From the NCBI RefSeq assembly GCF_019669965.1, contig NZ_AP019781.1, positions 1,799,092 through 1,863,091 of the forward strand: a stretch of 64,000 bases of DNA, in the 5' to 3' direction. How positions within the stretch are numbered: the first letter of the stretch is position 1; every line of letters begins with the position of its first letter. Positions 25,044 to 28,754 of the stretch are shown one piece after another. The DNA is from Methanoculleus chikugoensis. GTDB taxonomy: Archaea; Halobacteriota; Methanomicrobia; Methanomicrobiales; Methanoculleaceae. A model generated the notes under the pieces. The model saw nothing but the letters and a program-made list of their open reading frames with translations, had not been told where the DNA came from and made no database searches. Both the position numbers and the translations under genes were made by a program.

Positions 25044-25052
25044 CTAATATAT
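25044..25052 (+). promoter_or_regulatory. TATA box (CTAATATAT) of the SepCysS operon
   Basis: An AT-rich box about 28 bases upstream of the GTG at 25080. Transcription would begin around 25070-25077, so the first gene is nearly leaderless. Confidence 0.5.
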
Positions 25053-25079
25053 CCTCGCTGATATTTGTATGGTGATCTC

Positions 25080-25262
25080 GTGTCAAAAAGGGCCGTAGAT
25101 GCAGTTTTTCAGGCACTATTCCTCCTATCCGACGTCCGGTTCCTGCTCCGGGAGACAGCTCCCGGGCATGACCTTGACGAGGTGCAGAAAGCGCGCGCCG
25201 CAACAACCCTCGATAAGGTGAAACGGCAGGTTGCAATCCTCGAAGAGGAGTTGATCCGGTGA
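25080..25262 (+). CDS. 60-residue helical protein coupled to SepCysS
   Basis: The frame from the GTG at 25080 encodes 60 residues (SKRAVDAVFQALFLLSDVRF at the start; TLDKVKRQVAILEEELIR at the end) predicted by eye to be almost wholly alpha-helical and charged. Its stop overlaps the SepCysS start codon as GTGA (25259-25262), so the two are translationally coupled and probably made in a fixed ratio. I recognise no family. Class I methanogens use a helical accessory protein, SepCysE, to join SepRS and SepCysS. A similar tethering role here is only a hypothesis from position, size and helix content. Confidence 0.6.
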   Translation: MSKRAVDAVFQALFLLSDVRFLLRETAPGHDLDEVQKARAATTLDKVKRQVAILEEELIR

Positions 25263-26437
25263 AGTGCGCGGTCGATATCGAGTCCCGCGACGTCGAGGAG
25301 ATGTACATCAACATCGACCCCATCCAGGCGGGCGGGCGGCTCACCGCAGAAGCCATGAGGGCAGCGATAGCGTACGGGGACGGCTACTCGGTCTGCGACA
25401 ACTGCCGGAACCCTCCCCGGCTCGACTATATCAAGAACCCACCCATTGCGCAGTACCACGCGGATCTCGCTGCGTGGCTGAATATGGACACGGCGCGGGT
25501 CGTCCCCGGCGCCCGCCGGGGGTTCCAGGCGGTCGCCTCCACGCTTGTCGAGAAGGGCGACCCGGTCATCCTCACGGCGCTCGCCCATTACACCGAGTTC
25601 ATGGCGGTTGAGGCGGCCGGCGGGATCCCCCGGGAGATCCCGAAGGACAAGAAGAACCATATCACCCCCGATGCCGCGGCAGAGAAGATCGAGGCGGTGA
25701 TCCGGGAGTTCTCGAAGACGCCGCCCCTGCTCTTCGTCGACCACGTCGACTACCAGTTCGGGAACGTCCACGACGTCGCGGGCATCGCGAAGGTCGCCCA
25801 CCAGTACGACATCCCGGTCCTCGTCAACGGGGCCTACACCGTCGGGATCATGCCCGTCGATGGGAATGCGCTCGGCGCCGATTTCGTGGTCGGGTCGGGG
25901 CACAAGAGCATGGCGGCCCCGGCGCCTTCAGGCGTCCTCGCGACGACGAACGAGCACGCGGAGCGGGTATTCCGGACGACGCAGGCGAAGGGAGACGTGA
26001 CCGGCCGGACGTTCGGTCTCAAAGAGGTCGAGATGATGGGCTGCACCCTGATGGGGGTCACCGTCGTCGGGATGATGGCCTCGTTCCCCCGCGTCCGGGA
26101 GCGCGTAAAGCACTGGGATACCGAGGTGGCGCATTCGCAGGCGGTCGTGGACGCCCTCCTCTCCATCGAGGGGACGAAGGTCCTCTCCGACTACCCGCGG
26201 CAGCACACCCTGACCCGGATCGATACCCGCGAATCCTTCGATACAGTAGCACAGCAGCACAAGAAGCGCGGCTTCTTCCTCTCGAGCGACTTAAAGAAGC
26301 GGGGCATCACCGGCGTCATCCCCGGCTCCACCAGGGTCTGGAAGTTCAACACCTTCGGGCTGACGGAGAAGCAGATCCGGCACGTGGGGGAGGCTTTCCT
26401 CGGGGTTGCCCGGGAGAATGGGCTGAATATCATCTGA
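25259..26437 (+). CDS. pscS: O-phosphoseryl-tRNA(Cys):Cys-tRNA synthase SepCysS
   Basis: A 392-residue PLP enzyme that converts phosphoseryl-tRNA(Cys) to cysteinyl-tRNA(Cys), the cysteine route of many methanogens. Family marks are INIDPIQAGGRLT at the N-terminus, the conserved cysteine pair in YSVCDNCRNPP, the PLP lysine in GSGHKSMAAP and the third conserved cysteine in MMGCTLMGV. These three cysteines are thought to carry the Fe-S cluster or persulfide that delivers sulfur. The start is a GTG overlapping the stop of the upstream 60-aa gene. The neighbouring thiI and larE (on the other strand) are also sulfur-transfer genes. Confidence 0.93.
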   Translation: MKCAVDIESRDVEEMYINIDPIQAGGRLTAEAMRAAIAYGDGYSVCDNCRNPPRLDYIKNPPIAQYHADLAAWLNMDTARVVPGARRGFQAVASTLVEKGDPVILTALAHYTEFMAVEAAGGIPREIPKDKKNHITPDAAAEKIEAVIREFSKTPPLLFVDHVDYQFGNVHDVAGIAKVAHQYDIPVLVNGAYTVGIMPVDGNALGADFVVGSGHKSMAAPAPSGVLATTNEHAERVFRTTQAKGDVTGRTFGLKEVEMMGCTLMGVTVVGMMASFPRVRERVKHWDTEVAHSQAVVDALLSIEGTKVLSDYPRQHTLTRIDTRESFDTVAQQHKKRGFFLSSDLKKRGITGVIPGSTRVWKFNTFGLTEKQIRHVGEAFLGVARENGLNII

Positions 26438-26814: not shown

Positions 26815-27993
26815 TCACCCAACCTCCTCAACCACCCCGTTCTTCGCCCGAAACCGCCGCACCGCCCCCGCCGCCCGTTCCGCGAGCCCCCCCGCATTGA
26901 TCTCCTCCTCGATCTTCATGATCGTCTCCGCGGGCGCCGCAGTCGAGGGGTAGCGGGGGGCGACCGTGCACCCGACGTCTCCCGGGTGGGCCTCGAACGT
27001 TCCAATAGCACGTGCGCGGTCGACGACCTCCTCCTTGTCGAACCCGATCAGCGGCCGGAGCACCGGGACCGTCGCCGCAGGAGCAATCACCGCCATGTTC
27101 GCGAGCGTCTGGGACGCAACCTGCCCCAGGTTGTCGCCGCTGACCAGAGCGGCGGCTCCCCGCTCTTCTGCAAGGATACTCGCCACCCTGAGCATGAACC
27201 GCTTGCAGAGGACGCACCGGTAGCGCGGCTCTTTCAGTGCCGTGATCGCCGCAAAGAACGGCTCCATCTCCACGACCAGGAGATCGAGAGTGTGCCCCGG
27301 AACCCAGCGAGAGAGCCGGGCGTGGTTCTGCAGGACGTTCTTCTCCGCATCCCCACCCCCGAACCGCCCGCCGTGCATGTTAACGTGCACCATCCGGCAC
27401 CCCCGGCGCATCATCAGCCACGACGCGACCGGCGAGTCGATCCCTTCCGAGAGCAGGGCCATCACCTCGCCCTGCGTCCCGTAGGGAAGCCCGCCCGGCC
27501 CTGCGATCCTCTCGTCGTAGACAAGGCCGCCGTATTCCCGGGCTTCCACGAATATCTCGTAGTCGGGCGCCGTCAGGTCGACCCTCGCCTCCGGTATCCG
27601 GTCGAGGACGGCCGAACCGACCGCCGCCGCAAGTTCCTGGCTGCTGAACCCCTCGACACCCGACCGGCGCGCCCTGACCGCAAACGACATCCCGGGCCCA
27701 AGATTCCTCTCTGCATACTCGACCGCCGTGACCGCGAGCCCCTCGATATCCGCCGCGGTCACCGTGCAGACGCTCGCGCTCACCACCCCGAAGGTCTTTG
27801 CGGCCGCCACCGCGATCCGCCGGGGCTCGTCGCCGTAGATCATGATCCGCCCCCGGTAAGTCTCGATACGATGGGTGAGCCCCTCAGCCTCCAGCGCAAG
27901 GCCGATATTCCCCGTCATTATCGATATGTACCGACGCTTTACCGTCTCGCTCTTGAGGAAGATCTCCCCGTACCTGACCATCACCGCTTCCAC
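26815..27993 (-). CDS. thiI: tRNA 4-thiouridine synthase ThiI, archaeal type without rhodanese domain
   Basis: A 392-residue protein with an N-terminal ferredoxin-like region, THUMP domain, and PP-loop ATPase motif SEGIDSPVASW (the usual second Gly is Glu). It adenylates U8 of tRNA for sulfur insertion. The C-terminal rhodanese domain of bacterial ThiI is absent. Instead there is a CXXC (RCVLCKRFM) and a further cysteine in DVGCTVAP, the pattern in which methanogen ThiI proteins hold an Fe-S cluster and use sulfide. The GTG at 27993 is used, overlapping the end of larE by 13 bases; a methionine at 27981 is an alternative. Confidence 0.9.
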   Translation of the reverse strand: MEAVMVRYGEIFLKSETVKRRYISIMTGNIGLALEAEGLTHRIETYRGRIMIYGDEPRRIAVAAAKTFGVVSASVCTVTAADIEGLAVTAVEYAERNLGPGMSFAVRARRSGVEGFSSQELAAAVGSAVLDRIPEARVDLTAPDYEIFVEAREYGGLVYDERIAGPGGLPYGTQGEVMALLSEGIDSPVASWLMMRRGCRMVHVNMHGGRFGGGDAEKNVLQNHARLSRWVPGHTLDLLVVEMEPFFAAITALKEPRYRCVLCKRFMLRVASILAEERGAAALVSGDNLGQVASQTLANMAVIAPAATVPVLRPLIGFDKEEVVDRARAIGTFEAHPGDVGCTVAPRYPSTAAPAETIMKIEEEINAGGLAERAAGAVRRFRAKNGVVEEVG

Positions 27994-28754
27994 GAATCCG
28001 CACCTCCTTCCCGGTAGCCGCCGGAGGCTATCGCTACGTCCTCGAACCCGAGTTCCTTCACCGCACCGAGCAGTTCCTCAAGCCTCCGGCGGTGCGCCGG
28101 GTCGGCCTCGACCAGGGCCCGGGCGCCGCCGGTGCACCGGACGCGTATCGTTCCCGGGATCTCCCGCGCGAGGAGAGACTCTGCCGCCGCGACGAGCGCG
28201 AGGCACTCCCGGGTGACCGGCTCGCCGGTGGGGATGCGGGTTGCGAGGCACGCGGACGGCGGGCGGACGGGAACCCCGAGTTCGCGCGCAAGGGCCTCGA
28301 TCTCCGCCTTCCCCATGCCGCACTCGGCAAACGGGCTCCTGATCCCGAGTTCGGAGAGCGCCCGCATCCCGGGCCTCTCCGCGGGCCGATCGTCGGCGTG
28401 GGTTCCGTCGACCACCGTCCGGCAACCCTGGCGGCGTGCCTCCGCCAAGACCGCCTCCATCATCGCCCGCTTGCAGACGTAGCACCGTTCCGGCCGGTTC
28501 TCCCGGACAGCGGGGATCTCAAGCATATCGAGCGGTGTCACAATGTACGGAACCTCCAGGCGCTCCGAGAGTCTGCGCGCCGCCGCGAGCTCTCCCGGCG
28601 GGGTAAGGCCGGTATCGACGCTGATCGCGATCGCCTGAACCCCGTGATGCCGGGCGAGGCCCAGCAGAACCGAACTGTCCGTTCCACCGGAGAGCGCGAC
28701 CGCAACGGGTTCATAGGATTTCAGGAGTGTATCAAGCCCGCGAACTCTCGTCAT
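27981..28754 (-). CDS. larE: LarE-like sulfur transferase of the PP-loop ATPase family
   Basis: A 257-residue adenine-nucleotide alpha hydrolase with PP-loop SGGTDSS at residues 22-28. Cys169 in SACLATRIP matches the cysteine that LarE sacrifices for sulfur insertion into the nickel-pincer cofactor, and a CXXC (Cys91, Cys94) is also present. No larB or larC is nearby, so its substrate may differ; many methanogens carry LarE-like proteins without lactate racemase. The overlap with thiI suggests a shared transcript and a joint role in sulfur transfer, which is inference from position. Confidence 0.8.
   Translation of the reverse strand: MTRVRGLDTLLKSYEPVAVALSGGTDSSVLLGLARHHGVQAIAISVDTGLTPPGELAAARRLSERLEVPYIVTPLDMLEIPAVRENRPERCYVCKRAMMEAVLAEARRQGCRTVVDGTHADDRPAERPGMRALSELGIRSPFAECGMGKAEIEALARELGVPVRPPSACLATRIPTGEPVTRECLALVAAAESLLAREIPGTIRVRCTGGARALVEADPAHRRRLEELLGAVKELGFEDVAIASGGYREGGADSWKR

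Follow-up and report, generated by a model that had tools for sequence, protein, structure and literature searches.

SepCysE of Methanocaldococcus jannaschii (MJ1481; Pfam family PF09873, DUF2100) is built of three parts: an N-terminal helix (N-helix, residues 1-24) that binds SepRS, an N-terminal domain (NTD, residues 35-101) that binds the SepCysS dimer and a Toprim-like C-terminal domain (CTD, residues 111-213) that binds tRNA (Chen et al., 2017, PMC5688128). Deletion of the N-helix abolishes SepRS binding in M. jannaschii, and when SepCysE lacks its CTD no affinity for tRNA(Cys) can be detected for it together with SepCysS (PMC5688128). A second described system is SepCysSn, the name given by Mukai et al. 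(2017, PMC5424206) to a stand-alone domain that, as far as the searchable text of that paper goes, is encoded by a small separate gene directly 5' of SepCysS and has no CTD; the text of a later paper has it occurring often in archaea without SepCysE (Mukai et al., 2022, PMC8762117). The same features are found in a gene of the window, by which we mean the whole 64,000-nucleotide stretch of the Methanoculleus chikugoensis genome that was analysed. We conclude that this gene is a member of the already described SepCysSn kind, and the sequence-only reading, which had taken the product for an unrecognised protein, has to be corrected on this point. Neither the Methanomicrobiales nor fixation across that order is named in the searchable text of PMC5424206 and PMC8762117, the figures or supplements of which may show the family; the order-wide fixation of SepCysSn that is described below is new here.

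The SepCysSn gene lies at positions 25080-25262 of the plus strand, exactly where the sequence-only reading had put it, and its open reading frame, as read from the sequence, runs from a GTG codon at 25080 through 60 codons to a TGA codon at 25260-25262. The encoded 60-residue protein has the sequence MSKRAVDAVFQALFLLSDVRFLLRETAPGHDLDEVQKARAATTLDKVKRQVAILEEELIR. The overlap with the start of SepCysS that had been claimed for it is also there: the four bases GTGA at 25259-25262 (plus strand) hold both the SepCysSn stop and the SepCysS start codon, a GTG at 25259, so that the two genes share 4 nt and their translation is presumably coupled. SepCysS itself (25259-26437, plus strand) was identified by a match to TIGR02539, the only one in this genome, and by a match to the M. 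jannaschii SepCysS chain 3wkr_A with an E-value of 2e-81. Two genes on the minus strand converge on it from the other side, one ThiI-like (26815-27993) and one LarE-like (27981-28754), both names being read from the sequence.

An archaeal Shine-Dalgarno sequence, GGTGAT (25071-25076, plus strand), ends three bases 5' of the SepCysSn GTG codon, and a TATA-like element, CTAATATAT, that is kept in the loci of the same genus is found at about 25044-25052 on the same strand. Judging by the overlap and the spacing, this element may be a promoter common to SepCysSn and SepCysS, and the two proteins would be made in a 1:1 ratio. The 20-nt leader at 25060-25079 shows a pairwise difference of 3.3% within the genus, as against 14.2% for the SepCysSn gene. 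This leader holds the triplets ATG GTG ATC TCG, continuing into TGT at the start of SepCysSn, and it is possible that they form a tiny out-of-frame reading frame with a Cys codon. Because the ATG is missing in several other families of the order, the conserved leader is probably a promoter and Shine-Dalgarno signal only.

SepRS is also encoded in this genome (TIGR00470, 716 bits), and no match over the cut-off was found there for either CysRS (TIGR00435) or SepSecS (TIGR03531). Since SepRS is present and no CysRS passes the cut-off, SepRS and SepCysS are probably the sole route to Cys-tRNA in this organism. Selenocysteine is probably not made.

When the 81 genomes of the order, including the one that contains the window, were searched with tblastn, the SepCysSn gene was found in 77, and matches came from all 25 genera and from every one of the 63 genomes with a completeness of at least 90%. 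The gene was not found by tblastn in 4 of the 81 genomes, each of which is 71-86% complete: G013, G025 and G071 gave no SepCysSn match, and in G026 the sole match lay in a 457-residue frame of the fused-paralogue type considered below. We read 70 loci, each around one of 70 matches from 68 genomes, and in all 70 of them SepCysS lies directly 3' of SepCysSn on the same strand; in one locus the contig end cuts SepCysS after 19 codons (L066), another has a run of N (L069) and in a third the N-terminus of SepCysS is disturbed (L019). The junction is mostly a 4-nt overlap, and otherwise ranges from -1 to +3 nt. Where the pair has been duplicated, as in G079 (L042 and L056) and G074 (L055 and L067), every copy of SepCysS has its own SepCysSn beside it. 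The sequence-only reading had allowed that the small gene might be absent from beside SepCysS in close relatives; this was examined, and the two are linked in close and distant relatives alike.

The genes around the pair are not constant: among 40 loci that do not belong to the genus set, most of them 5.5 kb in length, ThiI occurs in 23 and Mre11 in 19. The linkage of SepCysSn to SepCysS therefore goes beyond general synteny. The frequency of ThiI in these 40 loci suggests a sulfur-transfer neighbourhood. We also considered a programmed frameshift that would join the two open reading frames, and rejected it because their frame relation differs among the relatives.

The protein sequence has been conserved along with the position of the gene. 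Pooled within the genus, SepCysSn has a dN/dS of about 0.21 and a pN/pS of 0.26, which is close to SepCysS itself (0.26 and 0.33, respectively, within the genus), whereas the same DNA read in the two other frames gives pN/pS values of 0.84 and 2.7. In the family alignment F10, R20, R24 and P28 are invariant across the order. We conclude that SepCysSn is a real gene under purifying selection, which also answers the second doubt attached to the sequence-only reading, that its protein might lack conservation.

A single SepCysSn protein has no match in Pfam or NCBIfam, and the family gives only scattered weak matches to the models of the two databases, none of them over threshold, among which DUF2100, that is SepCysE, is the meaningful one. 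PF09873 has eight sub-threshold matches in the 81 genomes, of which five, in five genomes, fall on the SepCysSn gene; these cover model positions 38-87 of 210, and the best score 13.6-14 bits, where 23 bits would be needed to pass the cut-off. We built a profile from 34 SepCysSn members, and the two best matches to it among 177,635 PDB sequences are the MJ1481 SepCysE chains of M. jannaschii, over residues 54-95, with E-values of 0.0059 and 0.018. After the profile was broadened with the fused domains SepCysE still came first, at an E-value of 0.028, so that nothing was gained in E-value. None of the 81 genomes has a PF09873 match over the cut-off, as would mark a full-length SepCysE; of the 14 control genomes one does, as M. 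jannaschii should, and one Methanocaldococcus SepCysE (L153) was found among the class I methanogens sought.

The structural comparison leads to the same protein. In keeping with the earlier description of the product as helical, the AlphaFold2 model of SepCysSn has two helices, at residues 3-25 and 34-59, with a mean pLDDT of 97.2. It can be seen from a Foldseek search of 350,542 PDB chains that the five best matches of this hairpin are all SepCysE chains, each with a probability of 1.00, and that it superimposes on chain 5x6b_F with an rmsd of 0.8 A over 49 columns. The Foldseek E-values of 0.1-0.25 are non-significant on their own, the compared fold being no more than a short hairpin, and the structural alignments show 22-26% identity between SepCysSn and SepCysE. 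Each of these statistics is marginal; the searches by sequence, by Pfam model and by structure agree with one another and with the gene context, and SepCysSn is thus homologous to SepCysE.

The region matched by the profile, residues 54-95, falls within the SepCysE NTD of residues 35-101, and the 60 residues of SepCysSn correspond to about 44-103. From the alignments and the model, SepCysSn is best described as the SepCysS-binding NTD of SepCysE encoded by a separate gene. Unlike SepCysE it starts at about residue 44 and has nothing to match residues 1-34, where the SepRS-binding N-helix lies; it ends at about residue 103, so that the tRNA-binding CTD is missing too, and it scores below the Pfam DUF2100 cut-off that SepCysE exceeds. 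In the profile alignment M. jannaschii SepCysE has D and Y at the positions of R20 and R24, and because of this difference the interface with SepCysS may differ in detail.

Some weaker secondary matches of the tblastn search fell elsewhere, including on the N-termini of longer SepCysS proteins that carry a SepCysSn-like domain. Such fused proteins, SepCysSN, occur elsewhere among the archaea of this phylum and as paralogues within the order, and nine of them matched the SepCysSn profile with E-values of 9e-8 to 5e-3, calculated as if the database held 1000 sequences. In an alignment they are co-linear with the small protein, a linker and SepCysS; SepCysSN is thus one polypeptide with a short linker, whereas SepCysSn has a gene to itself. 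Only R20 and R24 are invariant in the split and the fused proteins alike, and L16 and P28 are nearly so. When a natural fusion was modelled, the linker had a pLDDT of 56-68, and the docking of the domain was not fixed by the model. With the SepCysSn profile the domain was not recognisable in the Methanosarcina-type SepCysS loci that were sampled, so it would not be a universal need of SepCysS.

Taking the evidence together, we consider it probable, at roughly 0.87, that SepCysSn acts as a stand-alone SepCysS-binding domain, whose part is probably to stabilise or shape the enzyme and not to link it with SepRS. It would be translated just before SepCysS and, by analogy with the structure of the SepCysE NTD on SepCysS (3WKR/5X6B, PMC5688128), two copies would sit together at the twofold axis of dimeric SepCysS, as a structural subunit; the physical binding, the stoichiometry and the effect on SepCysS are inferred. 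With the N-helix and the CTD both absent, an NTD by itself is not expected to connect with SepRS or to bring in tRNA in the known way. The suggestion of the sequence-only reading that the product might be a short stand-in for SepCysE accordingly stands as far as homology to the NTD is concerned, but the protein would not be a full substitute, since it has neither the SepRS-binding N-helix nor the tRNA-binding CTD.

The complex with SepRS that had also been suggested found no support. In a comparison by eye of a single sequence, the SepRS of this genome reads about SVAGK, EIAG and AARCG where the loops that hold the N-helix in M. jannaschii are ILDEF, FNGE and ALVSN, and the two look unlike. 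This comparison bears on a proposal that we regard as distinctly unlikely, namely that SepCysSn uses its own surface to contact SepRS or tRNA(Cys), for instance through R20 and R24 of helix 1, and so makes up a minimal transsulfursome without N-helix or CTD. The invariance of these two arginines in the split and fused forms, together with their lack of conservation in SepCysE, may indeed reflect a function specific to this group, and SepRS, as probably the only enzyme that charges tRNA(Cys) here, would be available as a partner. However, SepRS binding depends on the N-helix in M. jannaschii, and tRNA(Cys) affinity on the CTD (PMC5688128), the loops of SepRS differ as described, and R20 and R24 could equally contact SepCysS.

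It could further be argued from the marginal primary similarity to SepCysE, and from the fact that helical hairpins are common, that the likeness is convergent and that SepCysSn is an unrelated helical protein binding SepCysS, or another protein of the cysteine pathway, in its own way. We hold this to be very improbable, as three partly independent searches converged on one and the same domain of SepCysE, for a protein encoded beside the same enzyme; moreover, in published alignments based on the crystal structure such peptides are grouped with the SepCysE NTD, according to the searchable text of PMC5424206. Scarcely credible, finally, is a role for the small gene mainly in coupling or regulating the translation of SepCysS, with a protein of little function of its own. 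The 4-nt overlap in most relatives and the strongly conserved 20-nt leader would fit such a role, but it is the amino acids that are conserved and not the position alone, as the dN/dS and the four invariant residues make plain, gaps of 0-3 nt replace the overlap in some relatives, and in other archaea the same domain is fused inside SepCysS, where coupling is impossible as a role.

The fixation of SepCysSn in an order described as being without SepCysE offers a natural test of what this domain does in the absence of the bridging and tRNA-binding parts. It is also a caution for the expression or modelling of Methanomicrobiales SepCysS alone, since the native enzyme is probably made of two subunits. 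SepCysSn is short and falls below all Pfam and NCBIfam thresholds, and annotation could miss the gene.

In SepCysS trees, whose split forms come from one phylum, the enzymes with and without the domain part on a branch with 100% support, and the split clade of the order is likewise supported at 100%. In the best tree the split clade is nested among paraphyletic fused forms, and these form a single group in 0 of 200 bootstrap trees. Provided that the root lies outside the domain-bearing group, this suggests that a fused ancestor was split to give SepCysSn; fission is put forward as a suggestion only, because a tree with one fused clade was not rejected (p-AU 0.18), and the direction suggested by Mukai et al. 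(2017) in the searchable text of PMC5424206 is the opposite one. A more far-reaching scenario, in which SepCysSn came from SepCysSN by fission, became an obligate subunit and, through R20 and R24, took over part of the lost handling of tRNA or SepRS as a minimal transsulfursome, strikes us as unlikely.

Within the order SepCysSN is an extra paralogue, usually found right behind tRNA(Cys), whereas the split pair is the form fixed across the order. The distance to tRNA-Cys is usually a few to about 20 nt (L154-L162, L166, L168 and L171); a second tRNA-Cys is present upstream of SepCysSN in L157 and L161, L164 is without a tRNA, and L169 (G050), like the relic described next, is a broken SepCysSN copy. 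That tRNA-Cys is associated with SepCysS genes of this type has been reported (PMC5424206). The M. chikugoensis genome holds a relic of SepCysSN outside the window, at about 1,544,150-1,544,445 of G000:C1 (L173:3654-3945; L002:1354-1704). There a tRNA-Cys (L002:1624-1696, minus strand) is followed by a SepCysSn-like domain, a linker and roughly 20 residues from the start of SepCysS, where the frame breaks off, then by an apparent thiI-like 3' end and by a cysteine-synthase-like gene, an arrangement that looks like the outcome of a large internal deletion.
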